From positions 496,001-560,000 of the forward strand of contig NZ_FOFI01000002.1 of NCBI RefSeq assembly GCF_900110605.1: 64,000 nucleotides of DNA, written 5' to 3'. Positions 58,409 through 64,000 of this stretch are shown here, piece by piece. This DNA comes from Epilithonimonas lactis (GTDB lineage Bacteria; Bacteroidota; Bacteroidia; Flavobacteriales; Weeksellaceae). Below the pieces are notes generated by a model that searched no databases, was not told the DNA's origin, and saw nothing but the letters and a program-made list of their open reading frames with translations. The first letter of the stretch is position 1; the number at the start of each line of letters is the position of its first letter. Position numbers and translations under genes: made by a program.

Positions 58409-59908
58409 ATGGAATTAGCATTAAAGATATTTCAGTTTATCCTGAGCATTTCTATCCTTGTAACACTACACGAAATCGGGCACTTCCTGCCAGCGAAATG
58501 GTTCAAAACCAAAGTAGACAAATTCTTTTTATTCTTTGACCCGTATTTTTCCATTTTCGCCATGAAAAAAATCAATGGAAAATGGCAATACAGATTCTTT
58601 TCTAAAAACGATCCTACTGAAGAAGAAGTTGAAATAGACGGTAAAAAAGTCCTTCAGCCTATCGATGTTTCAAGTCTTCCGGATTCGGACTGGAGAAAGC
58701 ACGAAGGTGTGAAATACGGAATCGGCTGGCTTCCATTCGGAGGTTATGTGAAAATCGCCGGAATGGTGGATGAAAGTATGGACACCGAACAATTGAAAAA
58801 ACCAGCACAACCTTGGGAGTTCCGCGCAAAACCGGCGTGGCAACGATTAATCATCATGCTTGGTGGTGTGACCGTCAATTTCTTTTTGGCTTGGGCGATT
58901 TATTCTTCGCTTTCTTATTTCAATGGCGAAACATATCACGATAATGCAAAGTTCGAAAATGGGATTGCGGTTTCTGAACCAGCAAAATTATTAGGTTTCA
59001 AAACTGGTGATAAAATTCTAAAAATTGACGGCAAACCAGAAGAAAGATTGGAAGACAGTTTTCTTGATATCTTATTGAGTAATGAAATAACTGTTCTGAG
59101 AGAAGGGAAAGAAGTGAGTTTCGCTCCAAATGAGGATGGTATTGCACATATTTTGGGTGCTAATGAAGCGAAGGCTTACATTACGCCAAGATTCCCAGCT
59201 GTAGTTGACAGTCTTGCTCCAAATATGCCCGCCATAAAAGCAGGATTGAAAAGCGGCGATAAAATAGTTGGCATCAATGGACAAAAGATTGCATTCTATG
59301 ACCAGCTGGGAGACATTCTTACCACAAACAAAGGTGGAAAAGTTTCTTTGGAAGTTGTTAGAAACAACCAACCTTTGACCATCACTTCTGATGTAACCAA
59401 AGACGGAAAAATAGGTTTTGCACCAGATCTGAAACTCGCTCAGACTTATCTTAATAAAAGTGAGGTCGTAAAAAGCTATACTTTCCTAGAAGCGATTCCA
59501 AGAGGTTTTGACAGAAGTATTGCTTCTTTGACAAAGCAAGTGAAGCAATTCAAACTTATCTTCCACAAAAAGATACAAGGTTATAAAAAAGTTGGAGGTC
59601 CGATTGCGATTGTAAACAATATGCACGTTGACAAAAGCAAAGACGGAAGCTTATCTATCAATTGGGAGTTTTTCTGGAGCTTTACGGCCATGTTCTCTGT
59701 TTGGTTGGCGTTCCTTAATTTAATCCCGATTCCAGGCTTGGATGGCGGTCATGTCTTGTTTACCTTGTGGGAAATCATCACAAGAAAACCAGTGCCGCAG
59801 AAGATTTTGGAAAATGCACAAATGGTAGGCGTTATTTTCTTATTAGGGCTTATGGCGTTAATATTTGGAAATGACATAGTTAAGCTGATAGTGCAAGCTA
59901 TAGGCTAA
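58409..59908 (+). CDS. rseP: RIP metalloprotease RseP (site-2 protease)
   Basis: A 499-aa intramembrane zinc protease that cleaves anti-sigma factors or signal peptides in the membrane. The zinc motif HEIGH is at residues 21-25 in the first TM helix. Two PDZ domains are at about 180-250 and 265-340 (LKSGDKIVGINGQK in the second). NLIPIPGLDGGHVLFTLWEI near the C-terminus supplies the third ligand Asp. The insert DKFFLFFDPYFSIF after TM1 is typical of Bacteroidota. No target is adjacent. Confidence 0.95.
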   Translation: MELALKIFQFILSISILVTLHEIGHFLPAKWFKTKVDKFFLFFDPYFSIFAMKKINGKWQYRFFSKNDPTEEEVEIDGKKVLQPIDVSSLPDSDWRKHEGVKYGIGWLPFGGYVKIAGMVDESMDTEQLKKPAQPWEFRAKPAWQRLIIMLGGVTVNFFLAWAIYSSLSYFNGETYHDNAKFENGIAVSEPAKLLGFKTGDKILKIDGKPEERLEDSFLDILLSNEITVLREGKEVSFAPNEDGIAHILGANEAKAYITPRFPAVVDSLAPNMPAIKAGLKSGDKIVGINGQKIAFYDQLGDILTTNKGGKVSLEVVRNNQPLTITSDVTKDGKIGFAPDLKLAQTYLNKSEVVKSYTFLEAIPRGFDRSIASLTKQVKQFKLIFHKKIQGYKKVGGPIAIVNNMHVDKSKDGSLSINWEFFWSFTAMFSVWLAFLNLIPIPGLDGGHVLFTLWEIITRKPVPQKILENAQMVGVIFLLGLMALIFGNDIVKLIVQAIG

Positions 59909-59937
59909 AAAAATTAAAAAAACTTTCAAAAAAAGTT

Positions 59938-59967
59938 TTGGAGTTTTTAAAAAAGTTTCTATATTTG
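59938..59967 (+). promoter_or_regulatory. Promoter of tRNA-Asn
   Basis: TTG (59938-59940) and TATATTTG (59960-59967) are separated by 19 nt, matching the -33/-7 pattern of Bacteroidota very well. Transcription would begin about 20 nt before the tRNA at 59994. Confidence 0.8.
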
Positions 59968-59993
59968 CACACGCTTAAAGCAAAAAGAAACAT

Positions 59994-60067
59994 TCCTCTT
60001 TAGCTCAGTTGGTTAGAGCATCTGACTGTTAATCAGAGGGTCGCTGGTTCGAGCCCAGCAAGAGGAG
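59994..60067 (+). tRNA. tRNA-Asn (GTT)
   Basis: A 74-nt tRNA. The acceptor stem TCCTCTT pairs with AAGAGGA (60060-60066), discriminator G60067. The D stem is GCTC/GAGC, the anticodon stem TCTGA/TCAGA with loop CTGTTAA (anticodon GTT at about 60028-60030), and the T arm GCTGG-TTCGAGC-CCAGC. CCA is not encoded. It is the presumed integration target for the element that follows. Confidence 0.95.
60047..60067 (+). other. Candidate attachment-site core in tRNA-Asn 3' end
   Basis: Tyrosine recombinases that follow a tRNA gene usually use its T arm and 3' end as the core site. The integrase at 60254 reads away from this tRNA. A second copy of the tRNA end, which would mark the other boundary, was not found in this window. 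The exact core cannot be set. Confidence 0.4.
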
Positions 60068-60068
60068 C

Positions 60069-60098
60069 AAAACCATCACAGAAATGTGGTGGTTTTTT
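60069..60098 (+). terminator. Terminator after tRNA-Asn
   Basis: AAAACCATCAC (60069-60079) pairs with GTGGTGGTTTT (one T-G wobble) around a short loop, followed by T residues. Confidence 0.75.
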
Positions 60099-60190
60099 GT
60101 TTTTATATGTACTGTATTGGGTTTGTCTTGATTCTATGGCATTTCTGAATTTCTTCTAATTTCCATATTTCCAACATTTCTGAGAAATTG

Positions 60191-60235
60191 AGGTTACCTT
60201 TTAGGTTACCCATTTTATTTTTCAGGTTACCCATT
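60191..60235. repeat. Three AGGTTACC direct repeats before the integrase
   Basis: AGGTTACC occurs at 60191-60198, 60203-60210 and 60224-60231. The last two extend to the 12-mer AGGTTACCCATT and are 21 nt apart, two helical turns; the first is 12 nt before the second. They lie between the tRNA end and the integrase start at 60254 and could be arm-type integrase sites or a regulator's sites. Confidence 0.6.
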
Positions 60236-60253
60236 CAAACCCCCATTAATACA

Positions 60254-61453
60254 ATGAAACTATCAATACTATTCCTTTTGAGAAGGAACAAGATTAACAG
60301 TAGAGGTCTTTGTCCTATTGAATGTAGAATAACATTAGATAAACAAAGAAAGCCTTTCTCTACAGGAATCTTCATCAACCCAAAGAATTGGGACAGTAAT
60401 AAACAGCTTACAAGACCTCCTAATGAAGAGAATAACAACACCAACAACCAACTAAGCCTGATTAAGAATAAAATTAATCAGGCTTTTTTATTTCTACAAG
60501 TCAAGGATGAGCCTTTTGATGCAAGTGATATTTACAACCAGTATGCAGGCAAGACAACGACCAAAGAGTATGCTTTGATTGAGTATTACAAGATTTACTT
60601 AGACAGGCTTCAAAAGCTTGTAGGACTGGAGATAAAGCAGGCTACTTGGAATAAGTTCAACTACATCAAAGAAGATGTTTCTGAGTTTATAAAATCTCAT
60701 TACAAGAAACCAGATGTCAAGCTAAAGAATTTAGACTTCAATTTTATTTCTGAGTTTGAGTATTACTGTAAGACAGAGTTAAAACACAAGCAAATCACTA
60801 TTAACAAATCCTTACAGAGACTAAAAAAGGTAATCAAACAATCTGTAATCAATGGTTATTTAGATAAGAATCCTTTTGAGGAACATAGTCCAAAGAAAGT
60901 GTACAGTAAGATTGTATTTCTTACCCAAGAAGAACTGGATAGGTTAGAAAATCACACCTTTCAATCTGACCCTCTGAATAGAGTTAAGGATTGTTACATA
61001 TTCTGCTGTTATACAGGATTAGCCTACAGGGAAATGTTTGAATTAAGAAAAGATGATTTGATAACAAAGCCTGATGGTATAACTTGGATATATCAAAAAA
61101 GAGAAAAGACAGAAAGAAATTTTTCTGTACCTCTTATATTACCAAAGGCTTTACAAATAATAAGTAAGTATAATTCTGACAGTCCTTTTGTCTTACCAAG
61201 AATTAGTAATCAATCTTTTAATAGACTACTAAAGGAAATAGCATTTACTCTGGAAATATCAAAGAATCTAACCCATCACACTGCAAGGAAAACATTTGCA
61301 TCTACAGTCCTGCTTAATAATGATATTCCAATAGAAGTGGTTTCTAAGCTTTTGGGTCATTCCAAGATATCTACTACACAGGAATATTATGCAGAGTTGA
61401 TGCCTGAAAAGTTAAGTGAAAACCTGAATAAGCTTAAAAATAGATTAAAATAA
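60254..61453 (+). CDS. int: Tyrosine recombinase/integrase
   Basis: A 399-aa site-specific recombinase starting at the ATG at 60254 (MKLSILFLLRRNK); the frame upstream to 60188 runs through the direct repeats. It has an N-terminal Arm-type domain (1-95), a SAM-like core-binding domain (about 105-210) and the catalytic domain: TGLAYREM with Arg259, HHTARKTFAS with His342 and Arg345, GHSKISTTQEYY with His369 and the nucleophile Tyr378. It is of the Bacteroidota ICE/phage type. It is oriented away from tRNA-Asn, the usual arrangement for an element integrated at a tRNA 3' end. Confidence 0.93.
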   Translation: MKLSILFLLRRNKINSRGLCPIECRITLDKQRKPFSTGIFINPKNWDSNKQLTRPPNEENNNTNNQLSLIKNKINQAFLFLQVKDEPFDASDIYNQYAGKTTTKEYALIEYYKIYLDRLQKLVGLEIKQATWNKFNYIKEDVSEFIKSHYKKPDVKLKNLDFNFISEFEYYCKTELKHKQITINKSLQRLKKVIKQSVINGYLDKNPFEEHSPKKVYSKIVFLTQEELDRLENHTFQSDPLNRVKDCYIFCCYTGLAYREMFELRKDDLITKPDGITWIYQKREKTERNFSVPLILPKALQIISKYNSDSPFVLPRISNQSFNRLLKEIAFTLEISKNLTHHTARKTFASTVLLNNDIPIEVVSKLLGHSKISTTQEYYAELMPEKLSENLNKLKNRLK

Positions 61454-61454
61454 A

Positions 61455-61478
61455 AAAAGTGGGTTTATACCCACTTTT
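61455..61478. terminator. Bidirectional terminator between integrase and polymerase-like gene
   Basis: AAAAGTGGGT (61455-61464) and its perfect complement (61469-61478) enclose a 4-nt loop, with A and T tracts. The stop codon of the convergent gene lies in the loop. Confidence 0.85.
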
Positions 61479-62898
61479 CAATTTTAAAATTTGGCTCAAT
61501 TCCAATACAGGCTTTTAAACTTTTAGCCATTTCATTCATTACATACTCAACATTTTCTTCTGTTGTAATTATAGAATCGTGAAGAGTATACATTCTAACA
61601 TCCGTATTTTCACTATGAATTTTCTTACAAGTCTTATTTAAGACTATCTCTGCCTCAAGATTTTGAAGAACTACAGCTAAAACAGAATGATCTAATTTTT
61701 TTACATACTTCATTACTTTGTAAACATTTGGAAATGACCTTTCAAAGATTTTTATAGACTTTGAATATTTTATAGCTTTATTCTTGCTAAATAAAGATGC
61801 AAAAGTAATATCTTTTACACAAGCCTTTAAGTCAGTTCCTGTAAGAGAGTTATCAAGTTCTCCATTTTCTTTAAGTAATGCTCCAAATTCTCCATAAAAT
61901 TTTCCAGAAGAAACAATTTTTTTGTATTGCAGAACATCTTCCTCTTGAGATATACTTTCTATCAAAACTCCTAACATAATAGTATTAAGTTCTGGCTGAA
62001 TTCTGTCGAGTTTCTCACTCATATTACATCTATCAAACACTTCCTTATCTAGGAGGCATTGTAGTAGAAAAGGTTGTGAATTAGAAATATCAATACTGTG
62101 AAGTATTTTTCCTTTTAATGTTAAAAATTTTCTTAACTCTGATTTTAGCTGAGTAATATAAGTATGTAATCTACCTGCTGTATTGTCAACAAAAAAGAGT
62201 GGAACTTCTTTAGTATGAAGCTTTGCAATAGGTAAAAGTCTGCTATTATACCTCAATTCAGGATATTTGACAAGAAGACTTTTGTCCTTTCTATATTCTC
62301 TTTTCAAATATTTTGTAGCCCCCCTTATATCAACATCAAGCTCACTAAACCACTTCCTTAAAAACAATAATTCTTGTGTTTGTCCTTTGTTATAATTCTT
62401 TCTTAAGTATGTTATGTTTTTGATTAATGTCCACGAAGTAATTACAATAGGCTTTTGATATAATGTTTGTCCATAAGCTTCAGTAAATCTCAACCCTCCA
62501 CATTTTATGTCAGGAATGTATTTTTTATCTTCTTTAACAACATTTTGTTCTACTAAATACTTAATGTAAGCTCTATAATCCTTAATTGTGCTTCCTAAAA
62601 TCTTTTTGCTAATAGGAGTAAACCCAGAATATTCTTCAATATTTTTCTTTTTTCTTGAAGGAAGAGTATAAATGAGATTAAGAATATACACAAACCTATC
62701 TCTACAATAGTTGAATTGAGGAGGGTTTTCCTGTAAAATTTGGTCTATATCCAAATTTTCTGGCAAGTGGAAAGTTAGTTTATCAATAAATGGGTAGCCA
62801 CCCTTAGTTTTTACTGCAAGTGATGCTTCTGCACTTGGGCTACTTTGTGAATTAAAGTGAACTGCTGAAGCATTGTTCACTTTTAATGGTACATCCAT
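61465..62898 (-). CDS. Minimal, diverged family-A-polymerase-like protein
   Basis: A 477-aa protein, not assigned to any named family by me. Its C-terminal half reads like the polymerase domain of family A DNA polymerases, in order: TAGRLHT (240-246; compare TGRLSS of Pol I), SIDISNSQPFLL with Asp270 (motif A), GKFYGEFG, K358-ACV-K362-DIT-F366-ASLF370 (motif B, R-x3-K-x3-F-x3-Y in Pol I), FERSFPNVYKVM, LQNLEAEIV with Gln412, and TLHDS with His440-Asp441 (motif C). Both catalytic Asp are kept. The sugar-selecting Glu after motif A is Gln275. There is no 3'-5' or 5'-3' nuclease domain; residues 85-135 look like a winged helix. It could make DNA, RNA or a primer; a T7-RNA-polymerase-like role is an alternative. 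Start is the only Met available. Confidence 0.7.
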   Translation of the reverse strand: MDVPLKVNNASAVHFNSQSSPSAEASLAVKTKGGYPFIDKLTFHLPENLDIDQILQENPPQFNYCRDRFVYILNLIYTLPSRKKKNIEEYSGFTPISKKILGSTIKDYRAYIKYLVEQNVVKEDKKYIPDIKCGGLRFTEAYGQTLYQKPIVITSWTLIKNITYLRKNYNKGQTQELLFLRKWFSELDVDIRGATKYLKREYRKDKSLLVKYPELRYNSRLLPIAKLHTKEVPLFFVDNTAGRLHTYITQLKSELRKFLTLKGKILHSIDISNSQPFLLQCLLDKEVFDRCNMSEKLDRIQPELNTIMLGVLIESISQEEDVLQYKKIVSSGKFYGEFGALLKENGELDNSLTGTDLKACVKDITFASLFSKNKAIKYSKSIKIFERSFPNVYKVMKYVKKLDHSVLAVVLQNLEAEIVLNKTCKKIHSENTDVRMYTLHDSIITTEENVEYVMNEMAKSLKACIGIEPNFKIEKWV

Positions 62899-62902
62899 TA
62901 CC

Positions 62903-62964
62903 CCTTCTCTTGAAGGAGCTGTGCCTTTGAGGTGCTAATCTCAAGAGGTGCTTTGTATCAAAGC
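62903..62964. repeat. Cluster of short hairpins and direct repeats in the polymerase-like gene leader
   Basis: Three inverted repeats lie in a row: CCTTC/GAAGG (62903-62916), TTGAG/CTCAA (62927-62944) and GCTTTG-TAT-CAAAGC (62950-62964). GAGGTGCT is repeated at 62929-62936 and 62945-62952. They sit just upstream of the start at 62898 on the - strand and could be an operator, an attenuator or part of an origin. Confidence 0.5.
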
Positions 62965-63094
62965 AAGTGGAAAATATAAATTTTTACAAAATTACAATTT
63001 TAAAATCAAAAATCATAATTATCCCCTTTTATAATTAAAAATTATTAACATTTATATTAATACACGTTCATTTTAACATTAAAGTTACAATCCA
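62965..63094. other. AT-rich divergent intergenic region
   Basis: About 130 nt with very few G/C bases separate the polymerase-like gene and the divergent ATPase gene. No gene is seen. It must hold promoters for both directions and, next to the hairpin cluster, could act as a DNA-unwinding element. Confidence 0.45.
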
Positions 63095-64000
63095 ATGAAA
63101 TTAAGACAATCAGAAAGAAAACAAGCCAAAATAAAGATGGCTCTTCAAGGAAGTGCTGGTTCAGGGAAAACATACTCTTCTCTGTTACTAGCCAAAGGAT
63201 TAGTTACTGGGGAATTCTCCAAGGTAGCTATTATTGATACAGAAAATGGAAGTGCAGATTTATATGCACATTTAGGAGGATACAATGTAATATCTCTAAA
63301 CCCCCCATTCACTCCTCAGCAATATATTGATGCCATTGACATTTGTGAGAAAGCAGGTATGAAAGTAATTATTCTAGATTCAATATCACATTGCTGGGAT
63401 TATCTTCTTGACTATCACAGTTCACTAGCAGGAAATAGCTTTACTAACTGGGCTAAAATTAAGCCTTTGGAAAAACTATTTATGGACAAGATTCTTCAAT
63501 GCAATGCTCACATAATTGCTACTATGAGAACTAAACAGGATTATGTATTAAACCAAAAAGATGGTAAGTTCATTCCTGAAAAAGTGGGTCTTCGGGCTGT
63601 ACAGCGTGATGGTCTGGATTATGAATTCACTTTAGTATTTGATATAGATATAAAGCATTTTACAATATCAAGCAAAGATAGAACAGGCTTGTTTATGGGG
63701 AAACCAGAATTTATAATCTCAGAAAAGACAGGCAAGGAAATATTAGAATGGTGTACTTCTGGAGTTGAACTAAATCCTATTACTCAGACCCCATTAGCCC
63801 CTAAAAAAGAGGAATCTTCTGAAAGTACACTAAAGAACTCTACTCATCAATTTGAAGCCACAGAAGAAGAGGTTTATAATGCTATTCAAGACTGTAATTC
63901 TGTTGGAGAACTATTATCCTTATACAGACAGTTCCCACAATATCATATTAGCTTAAAACCCGATTTTGAAGCAAGAAAATCCATCCTTATTTATTCAAGT
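63095..64000 (+). CDS. RecA-fold ATPase (AAA_24/Sak4-like), truncated by the window
   Basis: At least 302 codons, open to the final base. The ATG at 63095 starts MKLRQSERKQAKIKMALQG. Walker A is GSAGSGKT (residues 19-26); IIDTENGSADLYAHL and VIILDSISHCW (Walker B Asp95) follow; then RTKQDYVLNQKDG and AVQRDGLDYEFTLVFDID. This is the pattern of phage AAA_24/Sak4-type ATPases, which promote strand annealing or exchange together with an SSB and sit in phage and ICE replication-recombination modules. A helical tail after about residue 225 is not assigned. It is divergent from the polymerase-like gene. Confidence 0.85.
   Translation, partial: MKLRQSERKQAKIKMALQGSAGSGKTYSSLLLAKGLVTGEFSKVAIIDTENGSADLYAHLGGYNVISLNPPFTPQQYIDAIDICEKAGMKVIILDSISHCWDYLLDYHSSLAGNSFTNWAKIKPLEKLFMDKILQCNAHIIATMRTKQDYVLNQKDGKFIPEKVGLRAVQRDGLDYEFTLVFDIDIKHFTISSKDRTGLFMGKPEFIISEKTGKEILEWCTSGVELNPITQTPLAPKKEESSESTLKNSTHQFEATEEEVYNAIQDCNSVGELLSLYRQFPQYHISLKPDFEARKSILIYSS

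Follow-up and report, generated by a model that had tools for sequence, protein, structure and literature searches.

A minimal family A polymerase-like protein with a structured leader as the probable replication gene of tRNA-integrating elements in Bacteroidota

The window, i.e. the whole stretch of 64,000 nucleotides of Epilithonimonas lactis DNA that was analysed, ends within a mobile element of 13,344 bp between its att repeats, the right part of which lies beyond the window (Table 1). The integrative element proposed in the earlier note was confirmed by the 38-bp direct repeat at tRNA-Asn, which consists of the 3' end of the tRNA gene plus the bases downstream of it. The tRNA gene is followed by the integrase gene, and this is convergent with the gene for a 477-aa polymerase-like protein, designated POL. 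On its other side POL is divergent from the AAA_24 ATPase gene, which overlaps the start of the DUF3871 gene; DUF3871 has reportedly been named in one paper, on iron response.

Table 1. Features of the element around the POL gene (positions in the numbering of the window)
Feature	Position	Strand	Basis
tRNA-Asn(gtt), integration target	59994..60068	plus	ARAGORN; Rfam RF00005
att direct repeat, 38 bp	60051..60088; second copy 73395-73432, past the window end		element borders
Tyrosine recombinase (integrase)	60188..61453	plus	PF00589 E 1.2e-18, Arm-DNA-bind_5, Phage_int_SAM_5
POL, 477-aa minimal family A polymerase-like protein	61465..62898	minus	ORF, model, Foldseek, residue census
N-terminal domain of POL; following helices perhaps a thumb (putative)	residues about 40-150; helices 156-229		
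Leader: three hairpins in a closing stem with the POL start codon (four-way junction)	62892..62973	minus	RNAalifold, pair count, model search
AAA_24 (Sak4-like) ATPase gene	63095..64033, past the window end (64000)	plus	PF13479 E 2.5e-19; phrog_124 Sak4-like E 3.3e-10
DUF3871 gene	63966-65303 (first bases, 63966..64000, in the window)	plus	PF12987 E 1.5e-141

The right part of the element gave matches to CARF (PADLOC), ORC-CDC6-like, PRTase-CE and DNA methylase proteins, followed after the methylase by a 134-aa conserved protein, an HTH_3 gene and two more ORFs. The genes for CARF, the ORC-CDC6-like ATPase, PRTase-CE and the N6/N4 DNA methylase run in one direction (L033:9332-14633, corresponding to 65332-70633 in the window numbering) and this cargo cluster is a candidate defence system. 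Neither a relaxase nor a packaging gene was present among ten genes of the window element and ten genes of four other elements. No convincing iterons were seen upstream of POL and no replication origin of the element was found.

The POL frame starts with ATG and encodes 477 aa on the minus strand, the plus-strand frame at this place being rich in stop codons. The open reading frame described earlier is real, then, with its strand corrected to minus, and the motifs named in that description lie at the claimed residues (AGRL at 241-244, D270, K358/K362/F366/F370, Q412 and H440-D441). The dN/dS ratio was approximately 0.10-0.22 in five of the seven close pairs tried, the other two being saturated or giving no value; judged by these substitution patterns POL is under purifying selection, and its reading as a pseudogene was rejected. 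Host Pol I is encoded by a separate gene on another contig, the sole PF00476 match in the genome. POL itself had no significant match in Pfam, NCBIfam, PHROGs, PADLOC or PDB sequences, and no match to PF00476 was obtained at E<=10. PF00476 was likewise absent among the 25 listed of the 58 Pfam families matched by 71 members of the POL family, and the profile built on these members gave nothing significant against PDB sequences. One phage member (L030) matched phrog_15971, 'DNA polymerase I', with E 0.002; three other distant members scanned against PHROGs alongside it matched no DNA polymerase family.

A pattern search of genome contigs with the single protein recovered no relatives, and a search with an 11-row alignment did. 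Homologues of POL were found in 20 of 198 related genomes, a count that includes the genome of the window itself and some matches that are weak or incomplete. Profile searches yielded 79 POL-family loci in GTDB genomes, all of them Bacteroidota judging from the record titles, and 25 in IMG/VR; in the plasmid and phage collections a POL member was present in one plasmid and in six huge-phage records. The alignment excluded fragments shorter than 350 aa as well as 24 named loci that were split, partial, duplicated or otherwise obtained. Of the 85 rows left, 14 (L154 and otherwise mostly near-duplicates) were removed to give the 71-member alignment A3, and for alignment A4 17 of the 71 rows were dropped beforehand. 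The residue census was done on 109 distinct homologues of at least 350 aa each.

Some members of the family deviate from the common form. In L119, L127 and L139 the member lies in two frames, and in L120 and L122 the family match falls into two pieces with a long stretch between them, which suggests decay or inserted sequences in these split members. The homing-endonuclease types GIY-YIG, NUMOD1, NUMOD4 and HNH_3 each matched one of the 71 members in Pfam. The member at L083:9962-12022 has 686 aa, with approximately 200 extra C-terminal residues. In a 595-kb phage record (L028:9989-12435) a second, short family A polymerase of 428 aa, which is PF00476-positive, comes directly after the member. 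Five of the six huge-phage records with a POL member were searched for polymerases: four also have family B polymerase matches and one has Pol III alpha and a second, adjacent family A gene. The plasmid with a POL member, from Hymenobacter, has its own annotated initiator. Because of these other polymerases and the initiator, POL cannot be assumed to be the main replicase in the huge phages and the plasmid.

Structure prediction followed by a Foldseek search, the check proposed earlier, revealed a Pol I-like fold. The AlphaFold2 model of POL, based on the 71-sequence alignment, reached pLDDT 91 and pTM 0.87. The best 50 of 116 matches in PDB (E<=1e-3) were all family A DNA polymerases, with E from 3e-6 to 5e-5, probability 1.00 and whole-chain TM-score 0.24-0.40; they were recognized as such by their title or from the known entry. 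The PDB fold matches include apicoplast Pol, Klenow, Taq, Bst and Pol theta. The low whole-chain TM-scores are expected if the core alone is common to both proteins. When the family profile was compared by hhalign, Pol I gave a probability of 2.6%, E 0.018 and a score of 30, T7 DNA polymerase a score of 24, and three unrelated control families 13-18; the global mode gave nothing usable. These scores are weak in themselves, but their order lends some support to a family A core. In the alignment with Pol I the O-helix, the FERSFPNVYKVM segment and motif C are matched to their counterparts, so that the parallel drawn earlier for this segment is reproduced. Kinship with T7 RNA polymerase was rejected: it was not found among the best 50 PDB matches and its profile score was 24 over 25 columns, versus 30 for Pol I.

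The residue census shows that the motifs did not arise by chance. R243 and D270 are present in 109 of 109 homologues, and K362, E415, H440 and D441 in 108 each, L139 ending before them; variation at D270 or D441, named earlier as grounds for refutation, was thus found in none of the members that reach these residues. Q412 is kept in 105 of 109. The catalytic Asp pattern of motif A and motif C (HD) is present in the family, as is the O-helix pattern R/K-x3-K-x3-F/Y/L-x3-Y/F: column 358 has R in 93 and K in 12 of the 109 sequences, column 366 has F in 67, L in 19, Y in 11 and others in 12 (F/L/Y in 97 of 109), and column 370 has F in 84 and Y in 23. Two glutamates are replaced, one at D+5 of motif A and the other after the motif C Asp. 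Motif C reads HDS (H440-D441-S442), with Ser after Asp in 95 of 109 homologues, and not HDE. Gln275, assigned earlier to the place of the sugar-gate Glu, is kept in 104 of 109, which makes it a trait of the family and not a sporadic change; its placement at the steric gate comes from the gapless comparison of D270-I-S-N-S-Q with D-Y-S-Q-I-E, at which hhalign introduces a gap.

Fold, motif order and invariance, and the order of profile scores all support the family A polymerase core claimed in the earlier note. The confidently modelled fold corresponds to a minimal family A DNA polymerase core, and POL is a conserved minimal variant of a known enzyme fold, the variant itself being new.

The N-terminal domain folded alone with pLDDT 84 as helices followed by two strands. 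No significant match was obtained for it in PDB (best E 0.03), and many of the listed matches, none significant, were winged-helix proteins by title. The winged-helix N-terminus proposed earlier is only suggestive in its helices and two strands and is not backed by a significant match; with a best E of 0.03, origin binding by a winged helix is a guess.

The start of the POL gene lies in a conserved structure. Five close members share approximately 80 conserved bases upstream, ending at the start codon, and the sequence farther away differs. RNAalifold applied to seven members predicted a closing stem that includes the AUG and encloses three hairpins. Changes on both sides were found in 9 of 25 pairs (shuffled alignments averaged 3.6 and none of 500 was as high), and pairing was kept in 94% of cells versus 87% in shuffles and 38-52% with the partners slid; the further pair types showed no excess (14 versus 14.0 in shuffles). 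The covariance model, run on 91 of the loci at E<0.001, matched polymerase starts only, namely the seven training members, two members absent from training (L035 and L060) and two duplicates. In the 198 genomes, searched with stricter filters by which weak matches are lost, it found four polymerase starts and one other match, which falls within a repeat-rich region that has no open frame on the strand concerned and was judged false. No Rfam family fitted the leader, tRNA alone scoring above the gathering score.

A start-closing fold of at least three branches was predicted for 19 of 24 close POL genes (picked by hand, the 'DUF3871-type' label not being checked for each), 9 of 73 other members and 55 of 302 control genes; as these 55 controls pass, the test is weak alone and its trend is supportive only. 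L061, a part of the leader alignment, fails it. The best hairpin at 98 POL starts differed mildly from that at 279 control starts (median -3.6 versus -2.7, p 0.004). By comparative analysis the leader is a conserved, covarying and new structure that matches no known RNA family, and it probably restrains the translation of POL by occlusion of the start codon, limiting the polymerase dosage.

The conserved block could instead be a single-stranded DNA origin or a protein-binding site and not a leader RNA at all. It lies in the divergent intergenic region of a mobile element, and covariation cannot separate RNA from single-stranded DNA. We regard this as rather improbable, since the block is fixed to the POL start codon within the closing stem, also in L060 where the stem holds a GTG start, and since the covariance model did not find it in 15 loci of sister elements without POL. 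The leader RNA is kept as the preferred reading of the block.

Gene neighbourhoods were counted in the 61 genome loci that have 3 kb or more of flanking sequence on both sides. A homologous tyrosine recombinase is present in 55 of them, with its midpoint within 3 kb in 45, DUF3871 in 28, and AAA_24 together with DUF3871 in 26; both also occur without POL. Among viral or phage loci the recombinase was found in 1 of 21. Flanking repeats at a tRNA gene span POL in 16 of 109 loci, one of which (L130) carries a fragment only. One such element, L097, measures 6.0 kb, and besides its integrase and POL genes only two further ORFs reach 70 aa or more. A viral contig of 4,060 bases (L154:1-4060) with a 42-base terminal repeat is apparently circular, and its main genes are a POL member and a gene for a 262-aa protein that appears serine recombinase-like by eye; it is possibly the smallest replicon of the POL kind. 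Among 12 small contigs checked as plasmids, the terminal repeat was seen in this one only, and the L154 protein had no relative in the plasmid collection.

A search for DUF3871 found it at 25 places in 21 of 148 genomes. Fifteen of these places were examined, all of them without POL, and the integrase/AAA_24/DUF3871 frame was kept in these sister loci. In or beside the POL slot they have an SF2 helicase-like protein (10 of 15) or a DUF3987-type protein (3 of 15), with neither in the remaining 2; in two of the three DUF3987 loci the gene lies across the integrase from the POL slot. The gene types are backed by Pfam on one helicase and two DUF3987 examples. The helicase-like proteins, of approximately 830 aa (ResIII/DEAD), comprise L183:10345-12840 and its homologues in the POL slot of the 10 sister elements. 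Four helicase-type elements share the integration site of the window element, next to rseP and tRNA-Asn(gtt). The rseP/tRNA-Asn site (58409-60088 in the window; L037, L184, L185, L186 and L188) is an integration hot spot for polymerase-type and helicase-type elements. The same chassis at the same site with a different gene makes the pattern of an exchangeable replication module, and since the sister elements carry SF2 helicase-like or DUF3987 proteins instead, POL most likely serves the replication of the element.

Taken together, POL is quite probably a minimal nuclease-free family A polymerase that acts as the replication gene of a tRNA-integrating, satellite-like Bacteroidota element. In the mechanism proposed, the integrase would excise the element as a circle and POL would copy or prime the element DNA. 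The N-terminal helical/winged-helix-like domain may direct POL to this DNA, with the AAA_24 (Sak4-like) ATPase and the DUF3871 protein as possible helpers. The structured leader would hide the start codon in its closing stem and keep translation low until it is opened or locked by a further factor, for which POL itself, a ligand and an antisense RNA are candidates. We infer the excision, the activity of POL, element DNA as its substrate and the action of the leader as RNA on translation.

A related possibility is that POL is a primase-like family A polymerase, which would start primer-free, perhaps with rNTPs, thereby stand in for the primase or helicase of related elements, and leave bulk synthesis to the host replisome. 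The POL slot is common to DUF3987 and helicase-like genes, the steric-gate Glu is Gln throughout nearly the whole family, and the HDS of motif C is also that of T7 RNA polymerase (IHDS in the local hhalign match). Nonetheless, the fold matches DNA polymerases, with no RNA polymerase in the best 50 PDB matches; in the viral library one of the 50 listed matches, at rank 30, was named an RNA polymerase, and the T7 RNA polymerase profile score spans a mere 25 columns, so that this role seems rather unlikely.

POL and the Sak4-like ATPase could also serve gap filling or recombination-dependent replication of the excised element and not initiation, considering that the adjoining AAA_24 gene resembles Sak4-like annealing proteins and that AAA_24 and DUF3871 accompany POL in part of the loci, as counted above. 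This is considered unlikely, because 35 of the 61 genome loci, the compact L097 among them, lack an AAA_24 homologue in the clusters. The most far-reaching version, a self-sufficient initiator-polymerase whose N-terminus picks the origin and which starts primer-free, while the cloverleaf-like leader to which it is tied both limits translation and marks the origin, we hold to be quite unlikely. If it were true, a protein of approximately 45-55 kDa and a recombinase would be enough for a mobile element, and L097 (6.0 kb) and the apparently circular L154 (4.0 kb) hint that a single polymerase and a recombinase may suffice. An anti-phage or abortive-infection polymerase carried as cargo is very unlikely: template-independent reverse transcriptases act in defence and the element has a defence-looking CARF/ORC-CDC6-like/PRTase-CE/methyltransferase cluster, but POL has no PADLOC match and has relatives in huge phages, and among the closer relatives its position next to the integrase and AAA_24 is constant, in contrast to the variable cargo.

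If POL does have the replication role, the replication genes of such small elements include polymerases besides helicases and primases, and one of the best-studied polymerase folds works when stripped to about 400-500 residues. The family extends across Bacteroidota and huge phages, goes unrecognized by Pfam and is a source of compact polymerases for assay, their sugar gate being altered. With the start codon held in the closing stem of the leader, dosage control of a replication polymerase is directly testable. A literature search of titles and abstract openings, with subscription papers and preprints outside its scope, found no description of such a protein, element or RNA.

The best structural matches to POL are two short viral proteins from BFVD, A0A516L5C2 (409 aa, no name shown; TM-score normalized to the query 0.69, E 2e-23) and A0A8D9FR19 (403 aa; 0.59, E 3e-16). 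The latter is labelled 'Putative DNA polymerase I', and the earlier statement that no system built on such a protein has been described has to be tempered to that extent. Both proteins are viral, and in the POL family an integrase homologue accompanies one of the 21 phage or viral-contig loci. With Klenow-type family A polymerases POL shares the fold, the motif A Asp, the O-helix spacing and the HD of motif C. Phe, Leu and Tyr prevail in the column of F366, and these are also the residues reported for position 762 of viral PolA (PMC6302109). POL differs from the Klenow type by having neither exonuclease nor 5' nuclease and a N-terminal domain of its own, by the steric-gate Gln and by HDS in place of HDE, and PF00476 does not reach it.

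The gp43 protein of phages T4 and RB69 is a family B polymerase. As far as the cited passages go, this replication polymerase represses the translation of its own mRNA via an RNA operator (PMC3014915) and so provides a precedent for autogenous control; the polymerase family and the RNA are different in the case of POL, for which repression by the polymerase itself is only proposed.

Among small integrated elements, the PICMI satellites are described in the cited passages as combining int and AlpA (PF12728) with a DUF3987 primase on which efficient replication depends (PMC10803314). The window element likewise has an integrase (PF00589) together with a probable replication gene. No HTH_17 regulator was seen among the scanned genes of the window element; a small gene cluster immediately precedes POL in 16 of 61 genome loci, HTH_17 being confirmed for L077, and HTH_17 was also confirmed for a gene beside POL in L107. 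In part of the family an HTH_17 gene may adjoin the probable replication gene, similarly to PICMI. In contrast to PICMI, no helper phage is known for the POL elements. They further differ by the Bacteroidota host, the tRNA sites, the AAA_24-DUF3871 module in part of the family and by POL, which in the window element takes the place of the DUF3987-type primase.
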